A DNA stretch of 64,000 bases from Acorus gramineus (lineage: Eukaryota; Streptophyta; Magnoliopsida; Acorales; Acoraceae): assembly GCA_030737835.1 (NCBI GenBank), contig CM060851.1:4926615-4990614 (forward strand). Reading direction: 5' to 3'. Positions 15,369 through 50,495 of this stretch are shown here, one piece after another (position 1 is the stretch's first letter; each line of letters starts with the position of its first letter). The translations under genes and the position numbers were made by a program. The notes under the pieces were generated by a model. The model did no database searches and had not been told where the DNA came from. It saw only the letters and a program-made list of their open reading frames with translations.

Positions 15369-15419
15369 GTGATTTACATAGTCGGGATCATCCAACTTAG
15401 CCTACCCAATATTTTTGCC

Positions 15420-15427
15420 TATAAATA
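15420..15427 (+). promoter_or_regulatory. TATA box of lectin 2
   Basis: TATAAATA lies 72 bp before the ATG, in the same context as in lectin 3 (50424-50431). It is preceded by a CCAAT-like CCCAATATTT about 20 bp upstream. The conserved position in both paralogs supports the call. Confidence 0.75.
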
Positions 15428-15491
15428 CACCCAACTCGATCAAAGAAACCACAAACCATATCAAAGAAACCTACCTCCACCACCAACAGTA

Positions 15492-16751
15492 ATGGCAACA
15501 CCACTGTCCCTAGCCCATCTAATCCTCTCGGCCTTGCTCCTCGGCCTCTTCGCGCCACCTTGCGAGGCCACAAACATCCTATACAGGGACTACAATACCC
15601 TCTATGCGGGCTACTCCCTCACCCAAGACAACTACCGATTCACCATGCAACCCGACTGCAACCTGGTCCTTTACGACAACGGCAAAGCCGTCTGGAGTTC
15701 AAAAACCGGGGACAAGGGCCGCGCGTGCCATGCCACGTTGAGGAGAGACGGGAGACTCGTCATCTACCCCGAAACCGGCGGTAACGGCATTTGGGATACC
15801 GGTAAACCAGGCGACGCCCTCGACGCAGATTACGCTCTAGTCCTTCAGGTGTGTTAGTATATATCACTTTGATATCACTTGTTGGTTTTTCTAATTTCAC
15901 CCAGTTACTCTATCAAAGAATACACAAAAGACAGAATTAAACACATTATTATATGACTTCTTCACGTCTTTTTATTCGGTGGTGTGACTTTGAGAAACAA
16001 AGATAAAAAATTCTAAAAATATATATAAAAATTTAGATCTCTTTAACGAGAACGAACAAAACACCGTGAAAATATTTTTAAAATGACTCATATTATATTA
16101 ATATATATAATAATTTGTAACCCAAGTAACATAAAATTATTTATGAATATATATATATATATATATAGACACAAACTTATAAATAATAAAAAAATAATGA
16201 TATAATTCTTCTGATTTTTTTCTTAATTATTTGATATTAAATATAATATTAAATTAAATATTTTAACATTTTAATTTGATATTTATAAAAAGGTGGACCG
16301 CAACGTGGTCATCTACGGCCCGGCTAAGTGGGCGACCAACACTGAGTCGACCCCCATTAGTGACAAAAACCCTAAAAACATCTTGGGCACGGACGAGATC
16401 CTTTACGCGGAATCCTCACTGACCTACGGCGATTACATGCTGGCCATGCAAGCCGACTGCAACCTGGTCGTGTATGATAAAGGGAGTGCTGTCTGGCACA
16501 CAAACACTGCTGGGAAGGGGTACCGGGACTGCTACCTGAAGATGCAGAGCGACGGGGATCTCGTCGTCTACAGCAAAGATGGAAAACACCGGCTTTGGTC
16601 GTCCGGCACAAGCGTCGGTGGCCACAAATACTATAACTTGGTCCTTCAGCCAAACCGGAACGTGGTCATCTATGGCCCGGCTATATTTCACACAAACACG
16701 GCGGCAGTGAGCAGTGCTATCAAAGGCATCGCAATGGTGACTGAGGTTTGA
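15492..16751 (+). CDS. GNA-type lectin 2, two-domain, intact
   Basis: This is a mannose-binding bulb-type lectin of 271 residues with two tandem GNA domains. Exon 1 is 15492-15848 and exon 2 is 16293-16751, with a 444-bp GT-AG intron splitting site 3 of domain 1 (Q119 | VDRNVVIY). A signal peptide covers about residues 1-26 (hydrophobic, ending PPCEA). Domain 1: site 1 is canonical (Q53 to Y61), site 2 is lost (RRDGRLVIY), site 3 is canonical, and Cys56/Cys79 are present. Domain 2 begins near NILGTDEILY: site 1 is canonical (Q172 to Y180), site 2 has N to D (QSDGDLVVY), site 3 has D to N (QPNRNVVIY), and Cys175/Cys199 are present. Family knowledge says such precursors can be cleaved into two subunits, and the linker around residues 132-148 would fit. 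Upstream in-frame codons exist, but the ATG after the leader matches lectin 3. This is the only lectin in the window without a break. Confidence 0.92.
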
Positions 16752-17112
16752 GTGGGAATGAATGGATATGGCCGGCCGCCGCAAAATGTTATGTATGTGT
16801 ATGTTGTAGTGTTCTTGCTGGGTATGTGTGTAGAATATGTGTGTAGAATAATTGCGGCAAATCCTGTTTTGTTTGGTCGACTATATATGAACGTCGTCCC
16901 TTTGGCTAGCTAGCTTGTTGATGCGTCTTGAATGTTCTTTTATTAGTACTCATGTTTTAAGCCAACGAGAAATAATCTATATGTGACTATGAATAATTTA
17001 GAAATGATTTAATTTTTTTTTTAAATTCATAATTTTCATGTCTCAAAAAAATAAATAAATACAAACAGAAACTTTAATTTATAAGATATGAGAATATTCT
17101 ATTATATGATAT

Positions 17113-17149
<37 letters not shown>
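16752..17149. other. 3' flank of lectin 2, ending in (TA)n
   Basis: Noncoding and near-identical to the lectin 3 flank (51544-51930). It ends in a (TA)n tract (about 17118-17149) that borders MULE-1. Confidence 0.8.
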
Positions 17150-17154
<5 letters not shown>

Positions 17155-18373
17155 CCGATTAGGTGCAGTTCGTGCGGTTAGGGGTCTACGGTGCGGCCAA
17201 CACATGCGTCGTCCGATTTCATTTCCACCGATCAAGTGGTGGAAATTTTTTTTTTTATTTAATTTGTAACCCCACCAACCATCCATCCCTGTCAATCACT
17301 CTCTCACTCTCCTCACTTTAATTTTTTCATTTCATCCCTCTCATTCTCTGTGTGAACAAAAATTTTTTTTTTTTCAAAACCCACCTGATCCCGGTGAGCC
17401 CCGGCTTGACCCTCCGATCCCGGCTTGACCCTCCGACACCGGCGACCTCTTCTTACCCCGAAACCTCCGTGGGCGACCCACCCTCGACCCTGATTTCATC
17501 GAGTGCTCCATTTAGGGTAAGGATTTTTTTTTTCGTGATAGCCTTTTCTTTTTTTATGTTTTACATGATTTCATTGTGATTTATCACTGGAGGATTGGTT
17601 ATAGAGAGGTTAGAGACCTGATTGGGGTCGATTATGCCATTAAAGCTAGGTCATATTTTGTTAAGAAATAAAAGTTTGGGTCTTTTTATATAATCTGAGT
17701 TAGAAAGATTCCTTGACTACCTATGTTATGTGAAAAGTCTTTTGATGACTTTCAAGGACTTGAAAAATTGTTGTGATGAAAATGTACTTTTCTGTATATA
17801 TGTGTATAGTTCTCTATTATTTCATTGTAATGGTGTTGTTAATGCTTATGGTTGTGTTTATACTAAATAGGTTGTGGTGTTATGGTACTGTCAGATGGTT
17901 GAAGGTGTTAGGGTGCAACTATTCATCAAGTCCTTGAGTTCAGTGATTGTGCTTCTGTTTATGTTGTCTATTATACAGTAGTTTATTTTGTTATGTAGTT
18001 GCTATGCAGTTCAGCTTATGGTTGTATTAAACATATATTATGCAGTTGATATGCAATTCACTTCAGTTTGTCTCACATGTTTAATGTGACAATGAAGAAA
18101 CAAATCAGCTTATGTTTCTAACCACCAGCACACAAATTATGACATATTCAATTGCCAAGTTGAACACTGCAGGGCCTTATTTCAAGAAATAGAATTTGCT
18201 ATTATATCCAAGTTGCACGTCTGACTACATGTTTTTTTCTCTAAAACATGTTTATTTAATTTGTATAATAAGTTTTTTTTTTTTGTTCAATGATTCGTGG
18301 GTGTGATTGTATGTCTTCGTGGTAATATTGAAGATTAATTAAGCCAATTCAAAACATGGTAACACCTAAGAAA
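17150..18373 (+). repeat. MULE-1 left TIR
   Basis: About 1224 bp, inversely matching 32042-33261 up to GGTAACACCTAAGAAA. It contains a GC-richer leader with a splice-donor-like AGG|GTAAGG near 17514-17521, which would pair with the acceptor before the transposase ATG. The small open frames in it are not conserved as proteins. Confidence 0.93.
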
Positions 18374-18829
18374 GATTTTATTTTACCTTCTTTGATTTAC
18401 ATTGATGACTTAGGGTTTAGGGTATTCATTTTTTTTTTAAGGGTATCAAAGTTTTGTGTTTTTTTCAACCAACCAATGTTGGTAAGGTGGGTGGCTGATT
18501 TTTGAAGGTGATGGACATGTGAAAAAGATTAGGTCGTATTGGTAATGATTAACACAAGACAATATTATCTTGTACTTTCAATTAAGAAAATGAGAGTCAT
18601 GATAATTGAACATTATTATTTCATCAACTATAAAAAAACTTATTTTCATGCATGCGTAATCACATTGAATATTTTAGACAGTGATCATGCATAGTTATTG
18701 AACACTTGAATACCCTTTTGGTAATAGCCTTACAACAGATCACATAAAATTGTTTGATGGAATGGCTTATGAGTATTGTTTGATGGTGGGTGAATTATTT
18801 CTTTTATTTGTTGTCATATTACAGTAAAA
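18374..18829 (+). other. MULE-1 region between left TIR and transposase start
   Basis: AT-rich, no gene. It ends in a splice-acceptor-like TATTACAG at 18817-18824, six bases before the transposase ATG, consistent with a 5' UTR intron that starts in the TIR. Confidence 0.6.
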
Positions 18830-21800
18830 ATGTTTAGTGGAGATGACGATACACTTGAAGAAACTGTTCAGAATTTAGAATCATTGTATGGTGATCATAG
18901 CGGTATTTGGATTCCGGACGTAGATGAACAATGTAAACCATTAATGGGAATGCCTTTCGATTCTCTTGAAGAAGCAGAAAAGTTCTATGTGAATTATGCA
19001 AAAATTTCAGGCTTTTCTGTTCGAAAGTCATCAACAAAATATCGTAATAATGATGGTGCAAAAGAACTTTATTTGAGAGATTTTGTCTGTTCCAAAGAAG
19101 GATTTAAAAAATCTTCGACTATAAAACAAACCCGAGGACATGTGTGATTAGGTTGGAAGGCTAAAATCAGTTTAATGAAAGATGGTGAAAGATGGAAGGT
19201 GCACAGTCTTGTTGAAGGTCATTCCCATGTTTTGTGTACTCCCACAAAAACACACCTCTTGAGATCACATAGAGAAGTAACAAATGCTCAAAAATCTTTG
19301 ATTGACACATTTAGAGGAGCCAATGTTAGCACTGCACAGACCATGTCTATTTTTGTTATATATGTGTCACTTTTTGCCTGCTGGTAACCATTGGAGCATT
19401 TTGGCAGTTTTTGAGTTTTTTTTTCGTTTTTCGATCGGAATCGTAAAATTTTGGACTGTTAGCTATCATCCTGTGTTTGAGGACTCTGATTGAAAATCTA
19501 ACTGCATATTATGTGTCCTGGTGCCATTTTAAGCCACTCATGAAATTTTCATCGAATTCCGGTAACGTTTCTAAAATTTCACAGTTCCGGGGCGTATCCG
19601 GGTTTTGACCGAGCGAGAAGTCATTGGGAGAGTTGACTCGGTCAAAGTGGACCCATGACTTGGTCAACCCTTTTTGTTTTTTTGTGTGGTTGGGTTGACC
19701 TAAGTCAAATCCCACTTAAAACCTTTAATCCTCACTTAAACCTAGCTTAAACCCTAATCAAGTTGCTTTGACTTATTTAAATGGGATCTAAAAAGTTCTT
19801 GCACTATTCATCATCTTCTCAAATCTCACTTTCTCTCTCCCCCTCTCTCCTTTTCTTAGTTTTGAGCCACCTAGGGTTCTCAAAGCTTAAAACCTAAAAC
19901 ATAGAAAGGTTAGATCCGATCCCAATCTACACCCCGGTGTTTTCGGATTCAAATTCCGAGGTGTTTAGCCCCTTCTCCCCCTCTCTTTTCTCCCCTGATT
20001 TGAGCCATTTCGAGGGCTAGGGCGGAGCTTGGCGGTGGAGGTTTTTGGGGAGGTGTTTCGGTGCGCGGAGAGCAACCGAACTTCCCTTCCTTCCCTTGGT
20101 AAGCTCTTTTTCCTTCTTTTTTGGCTTAGATGCTTGTTAGGAGGGTGGTTTTGAGGTTGGGTGGTGGTCGGCGGCTGTGGGTGGCTGTCGGTGGTGGTTG
20201 GGGGCGGTCGGAGGCCATGAGTAGCCGGTGGTTGGTGGTAGAGGAGCTCGGGCAGAGAGGTTGGCAGTCTCGGGCAGCAGGCAGCACAGGCAGCGCATCA
20301 GGCAGGCGCAGCAGGCGTGTAGCGGCAGGGCGCGCGCGCGCGTGCGCGCGGGCGTGCGCGCGGGCGTGCGCTCGGGTGGCGCAGGCGCGGGTGTGCTGGG
20401 CGCTGGGCGTGCTGGGCGCTGGGGCGTGCCGGCTGTGTTGGGCGCTGGGTGTGCTGGGCGAGGGTGCTGGGTGGTGCGCGCGGAGCGCTGGGCAGAGGCG
20501 CAGGCGAGCGGTGGTGCGCGCGGGGTGTGCGCGCGCGGCGAGGCGAGAGGTGGTGAGTGCGGAGTGCGCGCGGGGCGCGGGCCGTGCGGGTGTGCGCGCG
20601 GGCTGCTGCGCTGGGGCGCAGCGAGCGCGCGGTGCACCCAGGGTGATCCGACAGGAAGTCCGGGCGTGCAGGCTGGGCTCGGCAGTGCACCTGGGAGAGC
20701 GGGCTGGGGCTCGACTGTGCGCCCGGGGCGGGTGGCCGTGCGAGCGGCTGCCCGGGGAGTTCGGGAGTGAGCCGGGGTGCTCGGGCTCGCGTGCGTACGG
20801 GCCGTATGCACGTTTGCCCGAGTGTTGTGTATTTTTAGAGTATTTTTGGTATACTTGTGGATTTTACTCACCAAGTTGATACCCTGTCTTGCAGATCTTG
20901 ACGAACGGTCGCGCGACGACCCGACTTCCGGTGAGTGGGACAATCCAACCCAGTTGGGAGGCGCTATATGCACTTGGGCGTATACCGTCCTCCCCTGGGG
21001 CACCATAGATTAATATTAACCTGTTTAATATGTAATCCATGCAGCATGATTGATATGTAGTATGCATGCTACCCTAGACTGATTATGTTAGGGACTTGCA
21101 CCCTTAGGTTGTGTAAGAGCCATGCATCTTGTCCCCTTTGTTATCATGCTAGGAAAGCCTCGACCTTTGTATGCTCCCATTAGTTTAACTTGTTAAATTA
21201 AATGCAACTGGTAATATTATTGCATGCCTTAGGGAATATTAAGGGGCCTTGCGAGGTCAACATTGAGACCCGGGCTAGGGTGCTCCGTGTTCCTTGTTTG
21301 GTTGTCGAGATGTCCTATATCGGGACCTCATGGTGCCCTCCCAAGGTTTCTTTTCCCGTTTATACTAATGCATGTTCCCCGCATCTTGGTTATGCGCCCT
21401 GGAGGAATTCTGATGAATTCAAGACACTAGAGTTATAGAGATGTATAGTCAGCGGATCCGAGTGGATCATATGCGTGTGGGTAGGCTGTTTCTCTTCCCT
21501 TCGTTGGATCCGTGTAGGAACTCCTCAGCGTTAGACAGGCTATCCTGATAGAGGGCTCCCATCAGTAGGCACCTCCTGATCTTGGACTCGGACTGTGCTG
21601 AATGTGGGAGTAGACCAGGCAAGCTACGGTGTGGAGGAGAGGCTATCGGTGGACCAAGGATGATTAACAGCCTAGTCAGTCCCAATATCCTATGTCACCT
21701 ATTGAGGGGTGAGGGTGAGGGTGTATGGATGTGTATGGATGTGTTTGGATGATTATCAGTCCCAATATCCTATGTCACCTATTGAGGGGTGAGGGTGAGG

Positions 21801-24418
21801 GTATGGTGGTTCGGCGATGTAATGAATCACTGGATTATGTTGTTATGCCACTTTGAGGCTATTTGTTGATTATTAGTGGTTGATATAAACTGTGATGCAT
21901 GGGTTGTGCTGTTCACTGAGCGTGTGGCTCACCTCTGAGGAGGACTTGAAGGATGAGCTCCCTGAGCGACTGCACCAGTAGCGGAGTAGCGCTACGTCCC
22001 GCGAGTTTCTAAGGCCATCAGCATCCTTCCTTGTTATTGTATGTATATATTTCTGTGCTTGGGCACCCAGTTGTGTATTATTTGGATGTATTATGTATAT
22101 TGGCTCTCACAGGACGTTTGATTATGTATCGAGTCTGTAGTATGTTTTTGGATTACAGACTCTGTCTTTTAGCTTCCGCTTTTGGTGTATATATCATGTC
22201 AGCCCTACTTTGTAGTCTGTGTTGTCATTATAGCTGTTGTATGAGTATGTGATTGAACTCCTATTTTACTGATATCATATATACACTTGCCGCGACCCGG
22301 GGACGGCCGCCCTGGGGCGTGACAATTTTGGGTATGGATTCAGGAGGGTATGAAGAGGTTGGATGTACGGAGAGAGACATTCGGAACTACATAAGCAAAA
22401 ATTGAAATGAATTGAAGGATTATGATGCAGAATTATTTGTGAACTACTTCAAAGAAAAATATGAAATGAATCCATCTTGTTATTTTGCGTATAAAGTGGA
22501 TAAAGATAACAAGTTGACACACTGTTTTTGGGCCGATGGGGGTGCAAGAAAGACCTATGGTCATTTTAGAGATGTAGTTGTATTTGACACAACTTATAGC
22601 ACAAACAAGTATTCTCTAATATGTGCACCTTTTACTGGAGTGAATCATCATTTTCAATCCATTAATTTTGGTTGTGGCTTGTTAAATGATGAGAAGATTG
22701 ATTCATTTATGTGGCTTTTTGAAAAATGGCTGGACGCAATGGGAAATAGTCCTCCAAAAGCATTCATCACTGATCAAGATCCTGCAATTGGGGCTGCAAT
22801 TGCACATTTGTTCCCTCAGGTGCCTCACAGATTTTTTATTTGGCACATAATGAAGAAGGTAACAGAGAAAGTCAGCCCAGTTTCTTATAGAAGTGAATTT
22901 TTAGAGCCCTTCAAAGCATGCGTATATGGCTCAGAAACTTCAGATGAGTTTGAAGAAAAGTGGTGGGGGATAATTAGAAAATTCAAGTTAGAGCAGAATG
23001 AATGGTTCGCAACAATGTTTCTTATCCGTGAAAAGTGGATTCCATTATATTTTAAAGACATTTTCATGGCAGGAATGAAGAGTAGTCAACGAAGTGAATC
23101 TCAAAATTCTGTTTTTGATAAATACTTCAATAAAAATAACAGTCTCATTGAGTTCATTCATCTTTTTGAAAGGGCATTAGAGCGTCAAAGGTACAATGAA
23201 CTAGTGACTGATCATGGGACATTTGATAAAAGTCCAGAACTTGCAACAAATTATGCTATTGAATCTCAAATGGCCAAAAGATATACTCACAAAATTTTTT
23301 ACATGTTCCAAAAGGAAGTTATATCTTCTATGCAGTGTGGATCGATGATGAAATTTGAAGAAGATGTTCAAGTGCATATTGTTAAAAGGTTGGGGATGGG
23401 GGATTCATTTAATTATCGTGAAGTTTCATTTAATCCCTCATCTCAAGCAATTAATTGCTCGTGCAAGAAGTTTGAGAATGAAGGCATTCCATGTTCTCAT
23501 ATAATTGTTGTTTTGAGAAACAATTTCATCGATTGCTTACCTGAAAATCTCATCCTTGAAAGATGGACTACCACAGCCAAATCGAGGTCAGTATATGATA
23601 AGGATGGAGTAGAACTTCAAGCACAGAGAACATCAGGTCAGTCAAGTGGCAGGAAGAATATTGAGATCGTGCGTGGTTTTGCAGAATGTTTGAATGATGC
23701 TCCTGTTGAAGTGTGCAACGTAGCAAAAGATATGTTGGTTGAATTGCAGAAAATCAAGGCCTCGCACACAAGTGGCAGTAACAACCCACCACAATGCACG
23801 AGCATGTCAATTCCTTCGATTGTGAATGTCCATCCCCCGAATATTTCAAAACCCAAAGGCAGTGGAAAAAGATTGAAAGGGGGTAAGGAAATAGCGATGG
23901 AAGAGATGGGTAAGAGACGAACTTGTAGTGTATGCGGTAAGAAGGATAAACACAATGCACGTACTTGTCCCAAATTGAAAGAAATGTAAGTCTACAATCC
24001 ACTTTGTCAGATAACATTAATTTATTGCATATTTTCTTAGTGATATATGATGGTATGTGATTATTTCAGGTTATCACAAAATACTCAAGATAATTCTATT
24101 TCATTAAATGAAACTCCCGCTTCTAACATTTGCACCTCCAAGCGCATGGTAAACAATTTTGTCAATGTGTCACTCCGTTTGGTCATTTGTTCTATGAGTT
24201 TTATCTAATTTCCCCTTGCTTCAATTTTAATCATTGCAGACTATAGATAATGAACGGTGGAATACCTTTCGGAGGCTAAGCTTTGATCTTAACACTGGTA
24301 TAGTTGTAATGAAAAGCAATATGATATTATCTTGTCTTCAACGCACTTCAACATGCAGGTCTTGATCACATTTATGGTTTTCATCTGTAATGCAGATCAT
24401 GGGAGTTCAAATATCTAA
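18830..24418 (+). pseudogene. FAR1/mudrA-type MULE transposase, disrupted
   Basis: This cut-and-paste transposase family gave rise to the plant regulators FHY3/FAR1. Exon 1 starts at 18830 and encodes a FAR1-type DNA-binding domain. It meets an in-frame TGA at 19145-19147, then reads on through GWKAKI and EGHSHVL to the solo LTR at 19354. After the LTR the frame resumes (GMDSGGYEEVGCTERDIRNY), meets a second TGA near 22404, then stays open from 22412 for 525 codons. Numbered from 22412: MULE catalytic domain with D59 (VFDTTY), D121 (ITDQD) and likely E229 (QRSESQN); SWIM zinc finger C349xC, C361xH; and a C-terminal zinc-knuckle-like CSVCGKKDKHNARTC. Likely short 3' exons are 24070-24148, 24240-24297 and 24396-24418; all keep frame and end at TAA. 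Two nonsense codons plus the LTR make it inactive. Confidence 0.9.
19354..22324 (+). mobile_element. Solo LTR (2971 bp) nested in the transposase
   Basis: It starts TGTTATATATGTGTCAC, ends GGGGCGTGACA, and is flanked by the 5-bp duplication ATTTT (19349-19353 and 22325-22329). Removing it plus one duplication copy restores the transposase frame. No primer-binding site, gag-pol or second LTR is seen, so it is a solo LTR left by LTR-LTR recombination. Length and the GC-rich middle suggest a Gypsy-type LTR (Tekay/Del-like is a guess). It contains a pyrimidine-rich stretch (about 19828-19858) typical of LTR promoters and a 46-bp direct repeat (21676-21722, 21756-21801). Long frames in the GC-rich part (20130-21006) on both strands are compositional. 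Confidence 0.9.
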
Positions 24419-24580
24419 TAGTAGATGAAAAAGTCCAGGACAACACGAGAACGGGATGCCTCTTTTGTGAATTGAAGTATATGAAATCATGTAATTTTTT
24501 TGATGATGTAATATTTATCCTTTTGTAATTATGCATAACAATTCAAACTTTAATTTACTCACTTCTAAATGTAACAATTT
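24419..24580. other. 3' region after transposase
   Basis: A short AT-rich spacer between the transposase stop codon and the first degenerate array copies. No terminator signal is called. Confidence 0.4.
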
Positions 24581-27440
24581 TTTGGATGTGTCTACATATC
24601 TATGTACAAATCACAGGTTACCCATATATTGGGAAGTGACTTAACTATCTGGAAAACCACTGCTGCGTAGTTAGTGGCAGATATTTGATTTCTGATGGTC
24701 TTCAAAATTCTCCAGATCCATGATTTAACTGCTAGTTACATACTATGTTACCAAGAGTTCACTGAAAACTTGATAATAATAAATGCCTATGAGATTAAAT
24801 TACATACATATATGCTAGAATTCACACATTGGTTGAAGCTACCAATCTCACTAGATGTGTCTTCAAACGCAGTTACCTATATACATTTCGTTAGTTACAT
24901 ATATGCGTGAAGTGACTTAATCACCTGTAGGCTTAAAGTACATACATACACACTTGCATTTACTCATTGTCCGAAACTATCAATATCTCTGGATGTGTTT
25001 TAAGACACGGTTATCTATATAAAACTAAGCGGTTACATATTTGGTGGAGTGACTTAACTACCTGTGGGAATAACTTACTTACATACACCCACTATTTGAA
25101 TATATCAAAATATCCCTGGATGTGTTTTAAGACACACTTACCTACATAAATATAACGGGTTACTTACATTGGGGAAGCAAATTGATCACCTGTAGGCTTA
25201 AATTACATACATACACGCTTGCATTTACTCATTGTCCGAAACTATCAATATCTCTGGATGTGTTTTAAGACACGGTTACCTATATAAAACTAACTGTTAC
25301 ATATTTCGGTAGAGTGACTTAACTACCTATGGAATAAATTACATACATACACCCACTATTTGAATATCAAAATATCCCTGGATGTGTTTTAAGACGCACT
25401 TACCTACATAAATATAACGGGTTACTTACATTGGGGAAGCAAATTGATCACCTGTAGGCTTAAATTACATACATACACGCTTGCATTTACTCATTGTCCG
25501 AAACTATCAATATCTCTGGATGTGTTTTAAGACACGGTTACCTATATAAAACTAACCGGTTACATATTTTGGTGGAGTGACTTAACTACCTGTGGGAATA
25601 ACTTACATACATAAACCCACTATTTGAATATATCAAAATATCCCTGGATGTGTTTTAAGACACACTTACCTACATAAATATACGGGTTACATATATTGGG
25701 GAAGAATTGATCACCTGTAGGCTTAAAGTACATACATACACTTGCATTTACTCATTGTCGAAACTATCAATATCTCTGGATGTGTTTTAAGACACGGTTA
25801 CCTATATAAAACTAACCGGTTACATATTTTGGTGGAGTGACTTAACTACCTGTGGGAATAACTTACATACATACACCCACTATTTGATATATCAAAATAT
25901 CCCTGGATGTGTTTTAAGACACTTTACCTACAAATATAACGGGTTACTTACATTGGGGAAGCAAATTGATCACCTGTAGGCTTAAATTACATACATACAC
26001 GCTTGCATTTACTCATTGTTCGAAACTACCAATATCTCTGGATGTGTTTTAAGACACGGTTACCTATATAAAACTAACCGGTTACATATTTTGGTGGAGT
26101 GACTTAACTACCTGTGGGAATAACTTAGATACATACACCCACTATTTGAATCTATCAAAATATCCCTGGATGTATTTTAAGACACACTTACCTACATAAA
26201 TATAACATGTTACTTACATTGGGGAAGTGAATTGATCACCTGTAGGCTTAAATTACATACATACACACTTGCATTTACTCATTGTCCGAAACTTTCAGTA
26301 TCTCTGGATGTGTTTTAAGACACAGTTACCTATATAAAACTAACCGGTTACATATTTTGGTGGAGTGACTTAACTACCTGTGGGAATAACTTACATACAT
26401 ACACCCACTATTTGAATCTATCAAAATATCCCTGGATGTATTTTAAGACACACTTACCTACATAAATATAACGGGTTACATACATTGGGGAAGTGAACTG
26501 ATCACCTGTAGGCTTAAAGTACATATATACACATTTGCATTTACTCATTGTCCGAAACTATCAATATCTCTGGATGTGTTTTAAGACACGGTTACCTATA
26601 TAAAACTAACCGGTTACATATTTTGGTGGAGTGACTTAACTACCTGTGGGAATAACTTACATACATACACCCACTATTTGAATCTATCAAAATATCCCTG
26701 GATGTGTTTTAAGACACACTTACCTACATAAATATAACGGGTTACTTACATTGGGGAAGCAAATTGATCACCTGTAGGCTGAAATTACATACATACACGC
26801 TTGCATTTACTCATTGTTCGAAACTACCAATATCTCTGGATGTGTTTTAAGACACGGTTACCTATATAAAACTAACCGGTTACATATTTTCATGGAGTGA
26901 CTTAACTACCTATGGAAATAAATTACATACATACACCCACTATTTGATGTTTACAAAAATATCCCTGGATGTGTTTTAAGACACACTTACCTACATAAAT
27001 ATAACGGGTTACATATATTGGGGAAGTGAATTGATCACCTGTAGGCTTAAATTACATATATACACTTGCATTTACTCATTGTCCAAAACTATCAATATCT
27101 CTGGATGTGTTTTAAGACACGGTTACCTATATAAAACTAACCGGTTACATATTTTGGTGGAGTTTCTTAACTACCTGTGGGAATAACTAACATACATACA
27201 CCCACTATTTGAATCTACCAAAATATCCCTGGATGTGTTTTAAGACACACTTACCTATATACATTTAACAGGTTACATATATTACTGAAGTGGCTTAATC
27301 ACCTGTAGGCTTGAAATACATACATACATACCTAATTTATTCTTTGTCTGAAATCATATTGACACACACAACTTTTCACAAATCTAACCTATTACATAAT
27401 TTTGTAATAGCACATGCATACCAATGCATGAATACCACCC
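24580..27440. repeat. 264-bp tandem repeat array inside MULE-1
   Basis: A higher-order unit of about 260-269 bp repeats nine times between about 24980 and 27110, marked by ATATCTCTGGATGTGTTTTA. Each unit consists of two related half-units of about 130 bp that share TGGATGTGTTTTAAGACAC, TTACCTA and a GTTACAT box. Copies at both edges (24580-24950 and 27240-27440) are degenerate, as is usual for arrays kept uniform by unequal exchange in the middle. It lies exactly between the 3' ends of the two convergent genes and has no coding potential. Confidence 0.93.
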
Positions 27441-27656
27441 ATTGTAAAACATCGTATTCTTGTCATTTTTCACACGTCACTTCTTAAACGCATCTCATCT
27501 GCAATGCTTCTTTCATTTTTTATATACAATAGATGTGAGATAAAAACACTGTTTAAGTTACAAAGTAAAGAGAGCATGTAACATAGAAATATGAATCTAC
27601 TTACACATCATTGTTTTGACATGTTACAAAAAAATACAAATTAAGGTAGAAGATTA

Positions 27657-30632
27657 TCAACCGATTGCTTGCGATGCTAAAGTCTCATTTTTCTGTAATA
27701 TGAGACCTGCTAGCTTTCCTCGAAAATTATCCATGTCAACCTGAAATATTGTCATGCATAACAGTTATATAAATAATAAAAACTAATTGTGATTTACATA
27801 CATTTAAAAGATTAATTCTCTTACATGTGTGAATTGAAATTCTTTAGCTTGGCCTAAGCACTCCATATATTTTAAAACAAAAACACCACAATCAGTACCA
27901 TTATTTTGTTTGGGACATGTCACACAGTCAACGAGTTGCCAACCCTCATCAACTATCCCCTTGTATATGTTCTTAATATATGCAACCTATATAAAGCAAC
28001 AACCATTATTAGAGCATTTCCAAGATCAAATTATCATCAAACTAGATTGACTGTAAAATAAAACATGAGTGGACTTACAATTGCTTCGGCGCTCTTCATA
28101 TAAAATTTCCCCTTCTTAGATGTATATGCATCAAAACAACCCTTTTTCATATTAATGACCAATAGATGCCAATGAAAATTAGTTAAAAGGGGAATGAATA
28201 CTAGACCAATGGTAGTGGAGATCATCTCCCTCAAAGCACTCAAATGTTTCTCTGCTTTCTTCATTTCTCCTTTTGAAAACCAATACTGTTATACCAACAT
28301 TATATAAATAAGAATTGAGGTCTAATAATATTGTCAGTGAATATTACCAAAACACTTCATACATACATGAAACAATGATGACACAAATATAGTCCTTAGT
28401 TCTCCATCTTCAGTTCGACTCCGCTCTTGAAAAATATAACCACAAACATTGATTACCTATAAGATAAAGAAAGTGTTAATGTTATTTATAATGTTACAAG
28501 ATTGAAATATGAAAAGCACATACAAACTTCATTTAGCTTACATCTCCCTCAAGACATCTTCCTGTTAACAATTCAAATATTTGCTTCCTCGTACAAAATG
28601 TGTCTTCGTTCTCAAACACAATTCTCTGGATGAAATCAAATATAATAAGTAGGAACATAAAACTAAAAATGAGTTATAACACTAAAGCATTACCCATTCA
28701 TTTCTAAACTCAAAAAGTTGCCTATCAATTTTTTGTCAAGTTCATCTAAATCATCCATCGGTACAGTCTGAAATGATAGAAATGATATTAGAAAATATAT
28801 AAAAATCAAAAGATTTTAGCTAGTGTACATCAGAGAAAGTAATGGTAATACGCATTAATACCTTGTGACGCCTCTTGGTGGAGGATGGAAGTAAAAGATA
28901 AGGAGAACTTATCTTGGAACCTTTTTTCTTATCTCTTTTCCCTTTTCCTTTTTCTTTGCTTTCATCCTTTGTAGTGTGAGTTTCTTGCTCCGTGTCTTTC
29001 TGTTCATCCTTGTCAACTTGACAAACATCTTGATCATTTTCAACATATTCATCTTTATTGACATCTTCATTGGTGGAGGAGGACATCGAATATCCAGTAG
29101 ATAGAAATTCATCTTCATCCCTCTTCACACCCGACTGTGCATTATGGAATGATTTCATCCACATATGAATTTCTGCTGTCAACCGGGAATTCTCATCTGT
29201 GAGCCGATCATTTTCTTTCATCAGTCTCACATTTTCCTCAAATAGTCTATCTCTTTCTGCTATAATGGATTCCAAGCTATCTTGTTTACATTCATTTTTT
29301 GTCCCTTGTGTAACCTTTTTTGAAAGAAACGTATTCTCCACATCACGAGGCACAAGTCTTTCAATCACCTATAAACAACAAGATTGAAATCAATATCTTA
29401 CAAGTCTCAAAGTCATATTGACTTTAAAATAATACATATAATATGAATAATAAACAAACTAATATTAATGAAACACTTACTTGGAAGTCTTTCATCCCCT
29501 CAATTAGCATAGCCGCTGAATTTTTTCGATGATGTTTGATTGATTCCCATTTAAAAAGTCGGGGCACTTTATCGCGTGCAATGGACTTGGGTTTCACTAT
29601 ATTGCTATGCTCATAGACAAATACCTGTCAAAATCAAAATTTAATTTTAGACAAATGAGTATTGTCAATTACAATCACTCTAAGAGTTGATGACTTACAT
29701 TGATGAGAATGGCACACCCATTGATATATCCGGCACTTTGACTTTCTCCTTTTTTTTTACTCCTTACCCGATCAGACGCATCAGGTATGTGCTTTATCAA
29801 AAATCTATGCACTGCATCTGCCCATGCATAGTCTCCTAGTCTTTCAATCTCATCAACATATCCCAGTAGCTGAATCGGTATCGCAAAATTTGTTTGGGGA
29901 AAGAGAACAGTGGAAAATAATAAGAGAACCATCATCTTCATGAAATCTTCTAGTGCCCCCCCTATCTCATACAACATCAGTCGTTGGAGATGCCTTACAA
30001 TATTCTTTGTTGTTGGAGGAGATTTATCAAAAAACCTTTTTTGCAACTCTGTACACTCACCATCCTTTTCGAAGTCAACAATTTCTCCATGACTACTCAA
30101 ACCCAGGATTAATGCACAATCGGAGACTTTGAAGGGGATGATTGAATTTCCTAGTTTAAAACCTTTTCTTCCTTTCTCCCATACTCCACAACTTTCCTCC
30201 AGGATGGTTCTCTCACACAAAAGACTGGGCATCTTAAGAAAATGCCCAAACGGTGTTTTATCCATTGCCTTGATATGTCGTTCTTTGAGTTCTAACTTTT
30301 GCACAATCTTGAGAAATTTGGTCGGATAACATCTCATGTTAAGTGTATTTTGACCATTTTTCACTTTATCCTGTCAAATTGTTTATAAATATAAAAATAA
30401 GAAATACAAAGAGTGTATGCAATATAATAAGAGTATTAATAGGAAAGAATGTATTCTTCACTTGTTAAATTACCTTTTGTATGGTCTTTTTGTTTGTGTT
30501 AGACCTCAAATTCTTTGGAATTCTTTTTTCTGATAATTTTGTGCTTGAAGGCTTTGTAGATTGTCTAGCTTTTTTTAGTGGTTGCATTTGTTTTTCCTTT
30601 TCCAAAGTTGCAGGCCTCTTACGTCGAGCCAT
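27657..30632 (-). CDS. Ulp1-like C48 cysteine protease gene carried by MULE-1
   Basis: A ten-exon minus-strand gene with GT-AG introns. Exons: 30632-30474, 30370-29699, 29624-29481, 29368-28862, 28767-28694, 28625-28542, 28456-28367, 28285-28079, 27986-27825 and 27740-27657 (TGA). The product is about 727 residues. The N-terminus is basic (MARRKR). Exon 2 (residues 54-277) resembles the plant mobile-domain/DUF1985-type region that precedes Ulp1 domains in transposon proteins. Exon 4 is a charged coiled coil followed by an acidic then Lys-rich tract. The C48 domain has H615 (NFHWHLLV), D629 (tentative), Q673 and C679 (PKQNNGTDCGVFVLKYME), so the catalytic set looks complete. The family cleaves SUMO-like conjugates; its role in MULEs is unknown. 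Exon 5 is 74 bp where 75 is needed: one A missing from an A-run (about 28721-28726) shifts the frame before FEFRNEW. This is either a disabling mutation or an assembly error. Confidence 0.85.
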
Positions 30633-31143
30633 AGCTGAAAAAACAACATAAAAACAATAAGAGAAAGAAAAAAAAAAAACACACACACATGAAACTCATA
30701 TTGAAAAGGAAACTATTCAGGGAAACATAGAGGAGTGCAAGACAACATGGACATTCTCATATTTATGACAACATGGACAAAATGCTTTATTATTAGGAAG
30801 TAGATGCAGTCTCTTTAGATTTTTAAGATAAAGATTCAATCTACATCATGGTGGATGACAGTCTCAAGTTTTCATATATGGAGTGTCACTAAAGAAAGTA
30901 TCTGCATACATGAAATCTATAGAACCAAGTGCCTTCATAATTACCAATACACTACCAGACAATAACAATTGCCAAAGCCAAGACTTGAATGCACACCAAA
31001 TTCAGCCTTCCCAACCTATTATTTACTGAATCAATGCTACAAGAAACTTGTGTGTGAATGTTAAACCAGTGCCAAAAGCCAAAGGTTTAAAAACTTTTAT
31101 ATAAACTTTTATATACCTCGTTACAAGATGCTTACTATTTAAA

Positions 31144-31191
<48 letters not shown>

Positions 31192-32041
31192 TCAACATTT
31201 TAGACAGTAAAAAAGATTGAGTCAATATTTTCCTTAGATTTAACATGGTACATGGCTCTTGGTGATTAACATAAGAAGCACACGATTCATTCAAATACCG
31301 TATTCAATCAGAGTGGCATTTTTTTGTTGGTTTGAGACTGTCACCGTATTTGAATAGATCATCAACCTTGGATGGTATTACAACGAAATTTTTAGAGATA
31401 TATGTCACAAGCATAAAGTATTCCAAATTTTGTTAACTATCTCATAACCTCAAACCCCATTATCACAAACATTTATTCTCACACCATCACTTTGTATCAA
31501 GAATCATAACTCAAAAAAATAAATAATAATATAAAATAAAAAAATGGGCTCCCTCAGAAATCTTAGGAAGGAATCAATCATTCAACGAATCTCAGAATTA
31601 GCATGGTACATTAAAAACATAATTGGGAACCCAAATCTTATTTTCAACAAAGAAAACCAAAAATTCAAAAAAAAAAATTAAAACTTGTGAAGCTCAAACA
31701 TTGTTATGTGATTCTTTTCCCCAACCTTCAAATTATGAAAGCCTCATAATGAGATGGATATAATAAAAAATATCATCACCGCAGAACAAAAGAAAGCATA
31801 ATTGAAAGATTCATATGTGGTTGGGGGAATGAACAGAACGAAATAAGATGGTAATCTAAAAAACAAATATTCTATGCATTCTTCATTTGGTCGGTTTCAG
31901 TTATAATAGGCATTTCAAGGACTAAATAGGTTGAGGTTGTTTGGTTAGAATAGTTAGATTTAGAGTAAAAACAATAATAAGATGTTATATTTTTTAATAT
32001 TGAAATTAGCTTAGCTAAGCTGGATAATTATACACCAACGT
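30633..32041 (-). other. MULE-1 region between Ulp1-like start and right TIR
   Basis: No gene. It has a (TG)n tract at about 31151-31191. A splice-acceptor-like TTTTTTCAG, read on the minus strand, sits two bases before the ATG at 30632. With the donor in the right TIR this suggests a 5' UTR intron of about 2.2 kb, mirroring the transposase gene. Confidence 0.6.
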
Positions 32042-33255
32042 TTTCTTAGGTGTTACCATGTTTTGAATTGGCTTAATTAATCTTCAATATTACCACGAAG
32101 ACATACAATCACACCCACGAATCATTGAACAAAAAAAAAAACTTATTATACAAATTAAATAAACATGTTTTAGAGAAAAAAACATGTAGTCAGACCTGCA
32201 ACTTGGATATAATAGCAAATTCTATTTCTTGAAATAAGGCCCTGCAGTGTTCAACTTGGCAATTGAATATGTCATAATTTGTGTGCTGGTGGTTAGAAAC
32301 ATAAGCTGATTTGTTTCTTCATTGTCACATTAAACATGTGAGATAAACTGAAGTGAATTGCATATCAACTGCATAATATATGTTTAATACAACCATAAGC
32401 TGAACTGCATAGCAACTACATAACAAAATAAACTACTGTATAATAGACAACATAAACAGAAGCACCATCACTGAACTCAAGGACCCGATGAATAGTTGCA
32501 CCCTAACACCTTCAATCATCTGACAGTACCATAACACCACAACCTATTTAGTATAAACACAACCATAAGCATTAACAACACCATTACAATGAAATAATAG
32601 AGAACTATACACATATATACAGAAAAGTACATTTTCATCACAACAATTTTTCAAGTCCTTGAAAGTCATCAAAAGACTTTTCACATAACATAGGTAGTCA
32701 AGGAATCTTTCTAACTCAGATTATATAAAAAGACCCAAACTTTTATTTCTTAACAAAATATGACCTAGCTTTAATGGCATAATCGACCCCAATCAGGTCT
32801 CTAACCTCTCTATAACCAATCCTCCAGTGATAAATCACAATGAAATCATGTAAAACATAAAAAAAGAAAAGGCTATCACGAAAAAAAAAATCCTTACCCT
32901 AAATGGAGCACTCGATGAAATCGGGGTCGAGGGTCGCCCACGGAGGTTTCGGGGTAAGAAGAGGTCGCCGGTGTCGGAGGGTCAAGCCGGGATCGGAGGG
33001 TCAAGCTGGGGCTCACCGGGATCAAATGGGTTTTGAAAATTTTTTTTTTTTTGTTTACAGAGAGAATGAGAGGGATGAAATGAAAAAATTAAAGTGAGGA
33101 GAGTGAGAGAGTGATTGACAGGGATGGATGGTTGGTGGGGTTACAAATTAAATAAAAAAAAAATTTTCCACCACTTGATCGGTGGAAATGAAATCGGACG
33201 ACGCATGTGTTGGCCGCACCGTAGACCCCTAACCGCACGAGCCGCACCTAATCGG

Positions 33256-33261
<6 letters not shown>
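32042..33261 (-). repeat. MULE-1 right TIR
   Basis: About 1220 bp, the inverse of 17150-18373 with few differences. The leader with the donor-like site lies near 32891-32900 on the minus strand. High arm similarity suggests a fairly young insertion. Confidence 0.93.

Positions 33262-33302
<41 letters not shown>
33262..33302. repeat. (TA)n tract at the right end of MULE-1
   Basis: About 20 TA units directly abut the TIR end. The paralogous empty site at lectin 3 has only a short GTATATATAC. Confidence 0.9.
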
Positions 33303-33305
<3 letters not shown>

Positions 33306-34800
33306 CAAAATATTTTTAATTTTATAAAATTATGTTAAAAAATCTTCTAAAATACAATGATTGAAAAATGTCATCCACGTTTGTTAAAAATATAAAAAAA
33401 ATATCATGTGATTTTAAGAAAGATAATTTGATTTATTATTGAAATATATTGATTTAAAAGTTAAAAATGTGAATGTATAATATTTTGTGGAATCTCGTCA
33501 ATTTAATTATTTTTACAAAATTTATTCTAATACTATTTATTTAATGTTAAAATAAATTTTATTGGTTAGTTTTTGAAATTGATGACAAATAATGAGCCTT
33601 AATTAGCAAGTTTCCAGAGGGTACTACTCTTTTATCATACAAAACCCTCTAATCATGCATATATGGGAGTAGTAGAACTCTGCTTCAAAATGTTCAATCA
33701 CAGCGAAAAAAAAAAAAAAAAACCACCAAGCGGAGGTGACATACATTGATTTTTCCTTATATACTTTTATCATTATTTGATGATATGTTAGAAACACATT
33801 GGTTGTTTTTTTATTTTTATACGTAGTTAAAGAATCATATGTTTTTCACACTTTTAGGCTCCATTTGATAACAATGACAAAGAAACTTTTAAGCTAAAGC
33901 TAAAAGCTGTTATCAAATAGGTAAACTTAAATACATCATTATTACTAGATATTGTCTCTGAACTGTGTCTTGAAATCTATGTTTCATAAAGTAAATCATC
34001 ATTACACCATCAAAAGGTGTACATAAAACATAAAAAACTAAAAGTTATCTTTTAAAGTGTGTTTCTCGACGTGTTTAACCTAAAGTGAGATTGCTGACAT
34101 TGAAAATTATGGCTTACTTCTCTTCTTCTTATGTAATTTGGACCATTTGTAGTTGTACTATTTTTTCTCTTAAAAAAAAAAAAGAAATTGTAATTTGGAC
34201 CATTTGAACTATTCGTAGCTGTACTATTTTTTTTCAAAAAAAACATTAAAAATTATGAAGATAAGATGTATTCATCATGAATATAATACAAATATTGGAC
34301 TCCAGCATGACTTCATCATGACTTTCTTAATATATATATTCATATAACAATCACATGTTCGGAGGAGTTGATATTTAAGCATCGCCGCGTACATCGATCT
34401 TTATGAAATGATTAAAATAGGCAGTGAAAAAGGATTATTTTAATTTGACCTCGCTGTGTTTGTCGAATTGTCGCGTAGCAATTTATAATGGGAGCCACGT
34501 CGATCGTTTCCGTTCGTTAAATTTTTTAATGTCAGTATGTAATCTAATTTATAATTTTATATATTATAATAACATAACATATATTACGTTATCATAGTAT
34601 ATAGAATTCTATCATATTATTTAAATTATTTTTTTTAAAAAAAGTTAAAATAAAAAAATATACTATTATATTTTAATATATACATCATTTCCTGTAACTA
34701 CATACATTTTAATGGGATAATGTATGATTTAAAAAAAATTATAAATTACAGTGGGTTTAGATGTCTCATTTTCTTTAATTTTTACCATCAATTTTATACG
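33303..34800. repeat. Segmental duplication copy A, right part
   Basis: Starts at ACAAAATATTTTTAATTTTA and matches 51936-53460 (shared landmarks: CATACAAAACCCTCTAATCAT, GGCTCCATTTG, CATCGCCGCGTACAT, TGTCGAATTGTCGCGTAGCA, GGGAGCCACGTCGA). It includes a small TTAGGCTCCATTTG-type MITE-like segment (about 33856-34080) present in both copies. No gene. Confidence 0.9.
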
Positions 34801-38803: not shown

Positions 38804-38875
38804 TATAATAGATAAAAACAGATAATCTCCCTAACTCTGTCTGTGGGCTAACTATATATGCAGATGATAAAAAAT

Positions 38876-40179
38876 AGGGTTAAAAACATCTAAGTCCTTA
38901 CAAGCATTGGAAAACCCATATAAGTCCCTACTAAAATTGGGACAGACGTACGAGTCCCTGAAAACTCAGAAAAACCCAATTATCATCCCTGAATTAAATT
39001 TCCATCCAAACTTAACGAAATATTCCCAGAATATTCTGTCACATATAATTGTGTAGACATTGAAGTCTTTATAAACAGTTATAAAGACAAAGTAGTCCCA
39101 GCAAAAGATAAAATTGCCTCTAAAATACTTTTACATTAAATTGTGTACATATGACAGTCCCTATAAACAATCATAAAGACAAATTAGTCCCTGTAAAAGA
39201 CAAAATTGCTCCTGAAATATTTTTACATTTAATTGGATAGACATTACAGTCCTTATAAATAATCGTAAAGACAAATTGGTCCATGTAAAAGACAAAATGC
39301 CCCTGAAGGATTTTTACATTCAATTGTGTAGAAATTGCAATCCTTATTTACTTATAAACAATCATAAAGACAAATAATATATTTTTTTATTTATTTTTTC
39401 ATCTTTTATCCTATTGCTCACACTTCACCTGAACAAGTAATGAATAATGCTCTTTTCTTTAAGGTGTTTGCTTGCTTTGAAATATCTATACATGTTTTTC
39501 ACAAAATTTATTTATTTACATTCCTAGCAGAGATAATTTTAATAAACTCATGCCACTTTTTTTACTTTCCTACAAACAAAAAGGTAAAAAGAATGCATTA
39601 TACTGGTTAAATTTTTTTTTTTACATCCAAATTGAGATCTTTAGGTGGAGTGTGAGCGATATGATAGAAGATAAAAAAATAAATAAATAAATTATATTAT
39701 TTCTCTTTATGATTATTTATAAGAACTGCAATGTCTACACAATTAAATGTAAAAATCCTTCAAGGGTATTTTTGTCTTTTAGAGGGACCAATTTGTCTTT
39801 ACGATTGTTTATAAGGACTGTAATGTCTATTCAATTAAATGTAAAAGTCTTTTAAGAGCAATTTTATCTTTTACGGGGACTAATTTGTCTTTATGATTAT
39901 TTATAGGGACTACAATGTGTACACAATTTAATGTAAAAGTCTTTTAGGGGCAATTTTATCTTTTGCAGGGACTAATTTGTCTTTATGACTGTTTATAAGG
40001 ACTTTAATGTCTACACAATTATATTATATGAATATTCTGTTAAGTTTGGATGGAAATTTAACTCAGGGATGATAATTGGGTTTTTCTGAGTTTTCAGGGA
40101 CTCTTACGTCTGTCCCAATTTTTGTAGGGACTTATATGGGTTTTTCCATGTTTGTAGGGACTTAGATGTCTTTAACCCT
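38876..40179. mobile_element. Foldback element, family F
   Basis: 1304 bp with perfect outer ends AGGGTTAAA...TTTAACCCT, flanked by AAAAAAT on both sides (38869-38875, 40180-40186). Each arm of about 450 bp contains an outer part (AAGTCCCTACTAAAATTGGG, GAGTCCCTGAAAACTCAG) and then three to four tandem units of about 100 bp (ACAAATTAGTCCCTGTAAAA, CAATTGTGTAGACATT). The AT-rich centre holds no gene. Confidence 0.88.
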
Positions 40180-40186
40180 AAAAAAT

Positions 40187-42244: not shown

Positions 42245-44007
42245 GGGCTCGAATTCCCTGTTCCTATAGAAACAGGAAACACTATTTTAACCCAATAGAT
42301 TAAATTCACGTGAACACTCAAACGGACTAGTTGAGTGACCTCAAAAGAAAATTAATTGCTACTCTAAACGAATTGCACAAAAATCATGTAGAATAAAAGA
42401 ATCACAGATTAGTCAAACCATATTAAAAATAACCACTCTTCTAACTCATTTCAGACAAACACATATACAATCCGCGAATGAAAAAAAGATTGAATAAAAA
42501 AAAATTAATAGTTCAAATATATATAGTCTTTATGCCTTGTTATACCTTCTATTCATTGTGTGTGTGTGTGTGTCTATATGTATATATATATAATATCATT
42601 TAATTTATTAAACTATGTACTTCAACTTTTTATAAAAGTTCATATTTAGTGGCTCAGTAGATGAGGTATATAATTTTTTTAAAAAAATTTAAAATATGGG
42701 CCGACTGCATTTAAAACTATAAAAAAAAAAGGGTTATTTAGTTTCCACCCATCATAAAACAAGTAAATTATTAAAAACCCCCTCCAAAACACAATATTAT
42801 TATAAACCCCCTTTAAATGCTAACTGGATTTGTAAAAAACCCAAATAAGTTATTTTTTGACGGAATATGTTATTAAATGATGGAGTGAAAATAATATCCT
42901 TACTAAAAAATATCTTAACTTGATAGAAAAAGAAACCATTTCATTAACATAAACCATTTTCCGTCAAAATTTTTTTAGGAGTACTAATTTCTTTTTGTTT
43001 TGTTGACTGTTGAGTTTTACAAATCCAGTTAACATTTAGAGAGGGTTTATAATGATTTTGTGTTTTATAGTGTTATTTTTAATAATTTTCCTGTTTTGGG
43101 AGGGGTAGAAACTAAATAACATTTTTTTTCTATCAAGTTAGAATTTTTTAGTAATGGTATTATAGTCAATCCATCATTTAATAACCTATTCCGTTAAAAA
43201 ATAACTCATTTGAGTTTTTTACAAATTCAGTTAACATTTAAAAGGGGTTTATAATAATATTGTGTTTTATAAAGGTTTTTAATAATTTAACCGTTTTAGA
43301 AGGGGTGGAAACTAAAAAACCCTAAAAAAATTGAGCATAATATTTTTCTTTTATTTTTGAAATAGACATTCAATTAAATTATTTTATAATAAACAGATGA
43401 GATGACAAAAAAAAAAATTAAGTGGTATTATTCTCTTACATATATCATGTAAAGTCTGCAAAACCAATTTGATATTGTTGCTAATGATTTTAGAAAATGT
43501 CTTATAAATGTACTTCATGCAAATATAAAAAGAACTTAATAAAAAACGATAAAATAAACTTATACCCATTAATCAAAACTTAAACTAATAATAAGTAATT
43601 TTTTTTCGCCAAGGAACCGATAACAAGCTATTGATATCATCGTATGAGTCTTAGAAGTCCCAAAAAGATGAATTAATGTTCTATGAAAATCTTGTTGGAC
43701 CTCTCGTTGAATCCTTTATTGCTCCTCTCTCGTCAAAATAATACAGACTTTTCACCCTCTATTATTTGATACTAGAGCTTATATGTGATTCAATTGAAGG
43801 GACCGATTTGTGATTGATTTATTATACAAGGACTATAATGCAATGTTTACATTTCCTTTTACAGTGTTACAGTGTTTCAATGCAGACGGGTGTACAATCA
43901 ATTTTTTTTTAAGGCCGTTCAACCAGTCTGTTTGAGTGTCCACGTGGATATATTCTATTGGGTTAAAATGGTGTTTCCTATTCCTATAGAAACAGGAATC
44001 CGAGCCC
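42245..44007. mobile_element. TIR element with 9-bp target duplication (MULE-like)
   Basis: Left end GGGCTCGAATTCCCTGTT and right end AACAGGAATCCGAGCCC start TIRs of about 95 bp (shared CAGGAAACAC, TTTTAACCCAATAGA, ACACTCAAAC). Flanks TTATTCTAC and CTTTTCTAC (9 bp, 7 identical) look like a decayed target duplication, and the copy near 35858-35880 shows the uninterrupted site. A 9-bp duplication suggests a Mutator relationship. No transposase is seen. A family G foldback is nested at 42725-43327. Confidence 0.75.
42725..43327. mobile_element. Foldback element, family G (nested)
   Basis: Arms: AGGGTTATTTAGTTTCCACC at the left and GGTGGAAACTAAAAAACCCT at the right, with AAACCCCCTTTAAATG and its inverse, and GACGGAATATGTTATTAAAT and its inverse. 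A third, inner copy of the right arm lies at about 42975-43130. 603 bp, noncoding. Confidence 0.85.
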
Positions 44008-50423: not shown

Positions 50424-50431
50424 TATAAATA
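50424..50431 (+). promoter_or_regulatory. TATA box of lectin 3
   Basis: TATAAATA, 72 bp before the ATG, at the same place as in lectin 2. The promoter context (CGGGATCATCCAACTTA, CCCAATATTTCTGCC) is conserved, so the frameshifted gene may still be transcribed. Confidence 0.75.
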
Positions 50432-50495
50432 CACCCAACTCGATCAAAGAAACCACAAACCATATCAAACAAACCTACCTCCACCACCAACAGCA

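Follow-up and report, generated by a model that had tools for sequence, protein, structure and literature searches.

The frequency of Ulp1-like genes in plant transposons is still called unexplained in the accessible part of a review (PMC13317346), and an earlier sequence-only reading of the DNA studied here likewise noted that there was no explanation for a transposon keeping such a gene. According to the same review, KIU genes combine VANC with Ulp1 and are linked to self-specific hypomethylation (PMC13317346). Here, we analyzed a stretch of 64,000 nucleotides from Acorus gramineus (GenBank assembly GCA_030737835.1, contig CM060851.1, forward strand), hereafter called the window, which corresponds to C5:4926615-4990614 of the 398.6-Mb assembly of 137 contigs in which all genome searches were made. 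Positions 17150-33260 of the window form a Mutator-like element (MULE) that belongs to a multicopy family with long terminal inverted repeats (TIRs). It contains a FAR1-type transposase gene and, tail to tail with it, a gene encoding a Plant Mobile Domain (PMD), a coiled coil and a Peptidase C48 domain, hereafter the C48 gene.

Several described systems resemble this element in part. Jittery-like MULEs with ULP, described in grapevine and cited for melon, have a Jittery-type transposase and a ULP sequence downstream of it, which occurs in either orientation and in both TIR and non-TIR MULEs (PMC2528002); the PMD fusion, the intergenic array, the TA tracts and the replaced TIRs of the window family are unmentioned for the grapevine elements in the available text of that paper. 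In the KI-MULE/KIU system of Arabidopsis, the C48 gene also runs in reverse to the transposase gene, as far as the accessible parts of the two sources go (PMC2528002, PMC6117577). KI-MULEs (Kaonashi) are, however, non-TIR elements with mudrA, whereas the window family has 1.22-kb TIRs and a FAR1-type transposase. The kinship in layout to KI-MULEs that the sequence-only reading had seen is thus found in the reverse orientation of the C48 gene, and the window element lacks the defining features of that group (non-TIR, mudrA).

The likeness to the VANDAL/VANC system consists of a candidate accessory protein, possibly related to DUF1985, together with variable noncoding tandem repeats. DUF1985 is found in VANC proteins, whose targets are arranged as tandem repeats differing from one related element to the next, according to the part of the source available (PMC5735166). 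In contrast to VANDAL elements, the window family has long TIRs, a FAR1-type transposase, a PMD instead of a DUF1985 over the cut-off, and repeats only between the genes. MuTAnT elements of Medicago likewise have a Jittery-like transposase and insert into (TA)n tracts, the length of which varies; AutoMuTAnT measures 4.9 kb with a single transposase open reading frame in five exons, and neither a C48 gene nor an array is described for it in the accessible text (PMC4486113). Finally, MULEs of grasses and Amborella likewise carry a PMD, which is fused to the transposase there and to the C48 domain, in a separate gene, in the window family (PMC5418596, available part). Jittery-type MULEs with ULP (PMC2528002), TA-tract MULEs (PMC4486113) and PMD-carrying MULEs (PMC5418596) are therefore separately known from the accessible parts of these sources, and no paper joining PMD, C48 and MULE arrays was found in the literature searched, most subscription papers lying outside that search.

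Based on the analysis below, we tentatively propose, with a confidence that falls somewhat short of even, that the PMD-C48 protein acts as an anti-silencing accessory of the VANC/KIU kind, that a 266-bp tandem array between the two genes is its cis target, and that the C48 domain serves as a weak protease or a binding module. The protein would bind the array or similar repeats, and this binding would relieve the silencing of its own element as well as of relatives that have retained the array but neither gene; the transposase would then move the de-silenced elements. Because His, Gln and Cys are kept and Thr stands at the Asp position, the C48 domain may be a weak protease or mainly a SUMO/ubiquitin-type binding module. 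An anti-silencing function of MULE-captured PMDs is also a speculation of Ikeda et al. (PMC5418596, available part).

The element and its two genes

The left TIR (17150..18373, plus strand, 1224 bp) starts with CAGAACCG right after a (TA)n tract (17118..17149), and the right TIR (32042..33260, minus strand, 1219 bp) ends with CGGTTCTG just before another one (33261..33304), so that both element ends read (TA)n-CAGAACCGATTAGG. The two TIRs are 97.7% identical over 1224 columns with 23 mismatches. Since both flanks consist of (TA)n, any target site duplication of 8-11 bp would be masked. The insertion is nevertheless directly shown, because the host repeat of the MULE (15369-17127 and 33264-34798) has a paralogue at 50373-53457 of the same window, which is uninterrupted near 51898-51931 and has a short TA stretch there, representing the empty site. 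All four elements for which two ends were read (the window element, C68, C6a and C2b) are bordered on either side by (TA)n or near-(TA)n. Based on the TIRs, the protein domains and the empty site, there is no doubt that 17150-33260 is a true element beyond chance. These results bear out what had been read from the sequence alone, namely a MULE with TIRs of about 1.22 kb that enclose two tail-to-tail genes, one for a FAR1-type transposase and the other Ulp1-like.

The transposase gene of the window is split into two parts on the plus strand. The 5' part (18830..19353, start MFSGDD) encodes the FAR1 domain and has a premature TGA at 19145-19147 (codon 106); the 3' part (22325..23989) encodes the MULE DDE and SWIM domains and has a premature TGA at 22403-22405 (codon 200). 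Between them, a solo long terminal repeat (LTR) of 2971 bp (TG...CA, 19354..22324) lies in the transposase frame, flanked by the target site duplication ATTTT (19349-19353 and 22325-22329). The window transposase is dead because of these three hits, two TGA codons and the solo LTR. In the Pfam search, its pieces matched FAR1 (1.1e-9), MULE (PF10551, above cut-off, 3.1e-26) and SWIM (7.2e-6), the domain set of the FAR1/Jittery-type lineage. The solo LTR is missing from the transposase frame of all seven other aligned copies. Open copies elsewhere encode a single-exon transposase of 727-728 amino acids, and four of the eight copies read, window included, are open (C68, C123, C9, C127). The solo LTR sequence itself is a GC-rich dispersed repeat, which recurs around C10, C123, C2a and C1 and in the element L038.

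The C48 gene (27657..30632, minus strand) had been predicted to consist of ten exons, all of which were confirmed with GT-AG splice sites throughout: exons 1-5 at 30632-30474, 30370-29699, 29624-29481, 29368-28862 and 28767-28694, and exons 6-10 at 28625-28542, 28456-28367, 28285-28079, 27986-27825 and 27740-27657. Exon 2 (29699..30370, minus strand) holds most of the PMD/DUF1985-like region. In the surrounding open frame (29675-30373), PMD (1.1e-5) and DUF1985 (4.1e-4) both scored under the cut-off, and an AlphaFold model of exon 2 alone reached a mean pLDDT of 36.7. After splicing, the C10 copy encodes a protein of 727 amino acids, which matched Peptidase_C48 (PF02902, 2.2e-17) and PMD (6.9e-12), both over the cut-off, and whose C48 part matched SENP1 with 4.9e-14 over the domain.

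Alignment of the C48 gene comprised 14 copies including the window, 11 of them near full. The window is alone among the 13 aligned copies covering the start of exon 6 (C1 has no coverage of this site) in showing a one-base deficit there (28620..28626, about 28624, minus strand), bearing in mind that one-base indels may be assembly errors. Using the main exon-6 acceptor, the frame is lost and the first stop falls at codon 539, upstream of the C48 core; the window sequence CAGAG at exon 6 offers a second AG two bases on, a candidate acceptor restoring the frame. The poly-A run of exon 5 was ruled out as the site of a frameshift, since it is identical in the aligned copies and the lesion is the missing exon-6 base. 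Among the near-full copies, 3/11 have an intact C48 gene (C10, C9 and C6a; 720-727 amino acids). Both genes are damaged in the window element, which is shown to be a dead copy. The impression that its protease is far better preserved than its transposase holds insofar as the transposase was hit three times, but the C48 gene is frame-damaged too.

The two genes of the window differ by 1.0-2.0% from those of C68, C6a and C2b, and the ends of these four elements have (TA)n and a short terminal motif in common (by eye). In a blastn comparison, the window TIR found no match in the TIRs of C68 (1.5 kb, 99.4% identity left vs right), C6a (556 bp) and C2b (about 790 bp). The window type of TIR also occurs in C7 and C123. 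As an additional observation, comparing L009-L028 with the window showed near-identical genes with unmatched long TIRs (window vs C68, C6a and C2b).

A subfamily with a C48 gene and a 266-bp array

In copies having both genes, a 266-bp tandem array sits between their 3' ends. In the window it spans 24909..27328 with 9.2 copies of a unit made of two related halves, and its copy number ranges from about 5 to 12 between element copies; we regard it as a candidate cis element. The half-units, which were picked without an anchor, have the conserved cores ACATACATACAC and GATGTGTTTTAAGA, both weak leads only. Common k-mers of array and TIRs were rejected as binding sites, the words shared by four TIRs being short or of low complexity.

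The distribution of both features was derived from genome searches that score the best candidates only, so that absences are not proofs. The count was based on 79 transposase loci (84 rows less five second fragments), 38 C48-gene entries of the family (some of one gene) plus 60 distant rows, and at least 40 array clusters merged from listed matches, some of which may share an element. Among the matches listed, a C48 gene was located within 20 kb of 14/15 transposase loci of at least 90% identity, and the array near 11/15 of them, while the transposase loci of 60-89% identity showed a C48 gene in 1/52 and an array in 1/52 cases. This sole case among the sister loci belongs to a neighbouring copy on C68. 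The arrangement was tail to tail at 14/14 close transposase loci with a C48-gene match (by eye from coordinates). Within the limits of the searches, these counts show that one subfamily is distinguished by the C48 gene together with the array. Several sister loci hold open transposase frames of 718-779 codons, suggesting that transposition in this lineage requires neither of the two. As nearly all sister loci have no listed C48 gene or array nearby, the transposase lineage appears able to dispense with both.

Among the matches listed, 23/40 array clusters had neither gene within 20 kb. One of them, L038, was read; besides the array it has TIRs that measure 1.4 kb or more and are 95.8% identical, and it gave no protein match to the transposase or the C48 gene. 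Its array match at the DNA level runs into exon 10 of the C48 gene, and it holds short stretches from upstream of the C48-gene start. These gene-less arrays, L038 included, argue against a further explanation, in which the array is a terminator or insulator that protects the convergent genes from antisense read-through and small interfering RNAs, the C48 gene being incidental. We consider it improbable, even though the position between the 3' ends, the presence of other repeats in the same interval of a second lineage (see below) and the confinement of long cores to the array of the window element would all fit such a role.

The layout of the two genes is repeated in a second, more distant FAR1-type lineage. 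Distant C48 genes and another MULE transposase form ten pairs within 5 kb, compared to 0.28 expected for 74 C48 rows and 150 MULE rows among the matches listed. All ten pairs are tail to tail and 2.4-2.7 kb apart, and in 8/10 pairs a PMD-like exon is listed on the same strand, at most 7 kb upstream (by eye), C72 and C55 having none listed. One transposase of this lineage was typed and matched FAR1 (8.8e-16) and MULE (1.9e-34). The corresponding PMD-C48 genes are L036, L037 and L051-L058.

Short tandem repeats of another kind, scoring 143-326 (1.9-3.3 copies), were found in 7/8 intergenic intervals of the second lineage, compared to shuffle maxima of 32-48. The C102 interval lies only just above its shuffles (43 vs 40), and 8/8 intervals exceed their own ten shuffles, which were mononucleotide shuffles scored with TRF; the eight intervals are mutually related (C1 in short stretches only) and therefore do not represent eight independent cases. 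In all eight, the motif GCATATA occurs 3-8 times per interval and on a single strand only. In the second-lineage C5 element, it reaches 6.0 per kb in the interval vs 0.4-1.0 elsewhere.

It is conceivable, if rather unlikely, that VANC-like self-recognition operates in at least two FAR1-type MULE lineages of one genome. A PMD-C48 protein, with a non-canonical site in the window family and encoded tail to tail with the transposase, would then read lineage-specific intergenic repeats and lift the silencing of its own element and of repeat-keeping gene-less relatives, while whole long TIRs would be replaced between elements that have about 98-99% identity in their two genes. The family provides a testable setting: both genes exist in intact as well as broken forms, there are sister lineages lacking a C48 gene and gene-less relatives keeping the candidate array, and a second lineage combines the same layout with different repeats.

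Catalytic residues and selection

The C48 core is encoded by exons 8-9 (27825..28285, minus strand) and contains His615, Thr632, Gln673 and Cys679 in the numbering of the 727-amino-acid copy. An active Peptidase C48 has His, Asp or Asn, Gln and Cys at the SENP1 positions. The sequence-only reading had assigned a complete catalytic set to this gene; H615, Q673 and C679 were right, but D629 is not the catalytic Asp. In the alignment with SENP1, which is ungapped between the catalytic His and Asp, the SENP1 Asp (His+17) aligns with Thr632, and Asp629 (His+14) lies three residues before this position. The domain is over the PF02902 cut-off, yet the set of His, Asp or Asn, Gln and Cys at the SENP1 positions is incomplete due to Thr632. 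The same FDAYTS was read in 6/6 copies spliced in frame there (C10, C5b, C9, C7, C6a and C123).

The catalytic positions were further checked in 16 relatives. Three close kin cover the position of Thr632 (L035, L047 and L049; L034 and L048 do not), and all three have Thr there and also Asp629. At the position of the SENP1 Asp, the ten distant paralogues that align without a gap carry D (5), N (4) or Y (1), and D occurs at His+14 in 0/10. L044 was left out of the Thr count, as its Thr appears only via a gapped alignment and it has a YDS of its own. His is kept in 13/15 relatives covering it, and Cys in 13/15, at 26-84% identity. Because Thr is also present in the related copies and close kin read there, loss of the canonical Asp is a trait of the family and not of the window copy. 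From general knowledge of Ulp1 proteases, we infer that Thr at this position impairs catalysis. A complete-looking catalytic set can thus be misassigned.

Considering these residues, it appears quite improbable, though not the least probable of the explanations, that the protein is an active deSUMOylating or other ubiquitin-like (Ubl) protease, which acts by editing the SUMO attached to silencing factors or to the transposase and whose site is completed by Thr632 or Asp629. Such an activity would agree with the SENP1 match and its aligned His, Gln and Cys, and with the presence of Asp629 in all three close kin that bear Thr632, but it is hard to reconcile with the ungapped stretch from His to Thr632 and with the residues of the distant paralogues. 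In addition, action of MULE-borne C48 proteins on SUMO is deemed unlikely in the available part of a review (PMC6117577).

Next, we considered the selection acting on both genes. Omega was calculated from variable-site counts against a neutral expectation and not with a codon model, and the gene sets differ (11 copies for the C48 gene, 8 for the transposase). The C48 gene showed 49 nonsynonymous, 2 stop and 22 synonymous variable sites (51:22), resulting in an omega of 0.67-0.80 that is not significantly below 1 (p 0.08-0.22), or 0.66 (p 0.068) with intron-derived rates. For the transposase, 66 nonsynonymous, 6 stop and 48 synonymous variable sites (72:48) gave an omega of 0.42-0.50 (p <0.0003). 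Within the C48-gene alignment, the density of variable positions in exons (73/2184) is half of that in introns and flanks (59/917; p 0.0002). The window and C10 copies of this gene differ by 15 noncoding and 0 exon substitutions, the missing exon-6 base being uncounted. Overall, these comparisons point to some constraint on the C48 gene, which is not visibly above the constraint on the transposase. Among 8 copies, a Mantel test showed no correlation between the distances of the two genes (r 0.06, p 0.42), an outcome expected alike from star-like descent, from recombination and from decay. No dN/dS was obtained from the closer C48 relatives L034, L035 and L047-L049, which are too degenerate.

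The apparently better preservation of the protease in the window copy had invited the idea that it may be under selection of its own. Genome-wide, however, the full transposase query is open in a 739-740-codon frame at 6/15 loci of at least 90% identity, vs 3/11 intact C48 genes, and the dN/dS check proposed along with this idea gave a C48-gene omega not clearly below 1 among the copies. Based on the window and genome counts, this inference therefore fails, and preservation judged on one copy can mislead. We consider it very improbable that the protease serves in trans or benefits the host and is maintained by its own selection independently of transposition, although no search aimed at a single-copy host version was made: at some C48-gene loci (e.g., C1:23872788 and C101) no transposase is listed within 20 kb, but constraint on the transposase is equal or stronger, and C5b and C2c, with no transposase in the 20 kb read, carry broken C48 genes with a truncated exon 10, while C1 retains only exons 7-10.

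A more serious alternative, albeit still an unlikely one, is that the C48 gene represents passive cargo, which was captured by the ancestor of the subfamily and has since been hitchhiking and decaying without selection. This would account for the frame-broken C48 gene in 8/11 near-full copies, for its omega, for the 51/52 sister loci without a listed C48 gene nearby (the 52nd having only that of a neighbour) and for the Thr at the Asp position. It fits poorly with the halved variation of exons, with the lack of exon substitutions between the window and C10, with the retention of His and Cys in relatives of as little as 26% identity, and with a layout that recurs tail to tail in all ten pairs of another MULE lineage.

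The anti-silencing accessory that we tentatively favour draws on the PMD and C48 matches over the cut-off, the linkage of the subfamily with the array, the array clusters with neither gene listed nearby (L038 among them), the layout of the second lineage, exons that are half as variable as introns and, by analogy, the published VANC, KIU and PMD-carrying systems. Several observations weigh against it, among them the broken copies and the omega of the C48 gene just mentioned. DUF1985 remains under the cut-off on the C10 protein (0.00098), the N-terminus being called PMD, and within the window element long array cores are found in the array only and not in TIRs or introns, unlike VANC targets. 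Furthermore, the sister locus C6:22664029 has a distant match of PMD/DUF1985 type within 20 kb, and the co-occurrence of array and C48 gene is explicable by their shared history as neighbours.

Other repeats in the window

A second inverted-repeat element at 55836-60260 has (TA)n at both ends and arms at 55845-56745 and 59341-60225 of about 88-96% identity. Immediately beyond the right (TA)n of this element (about 60226-60260), CACGAGCCGCACCTAATC is found on the reverse strand, a sequence also present close to the right end of the window MULE; a second MULE-type end thus seems to border the same TA tract. Two more inverted-repeat (foldback-like) structures are located at 38875-40180 and 42245-44007, and a GC-richer tandem repeat array occupies 62379-63381 at the right edge of the window.

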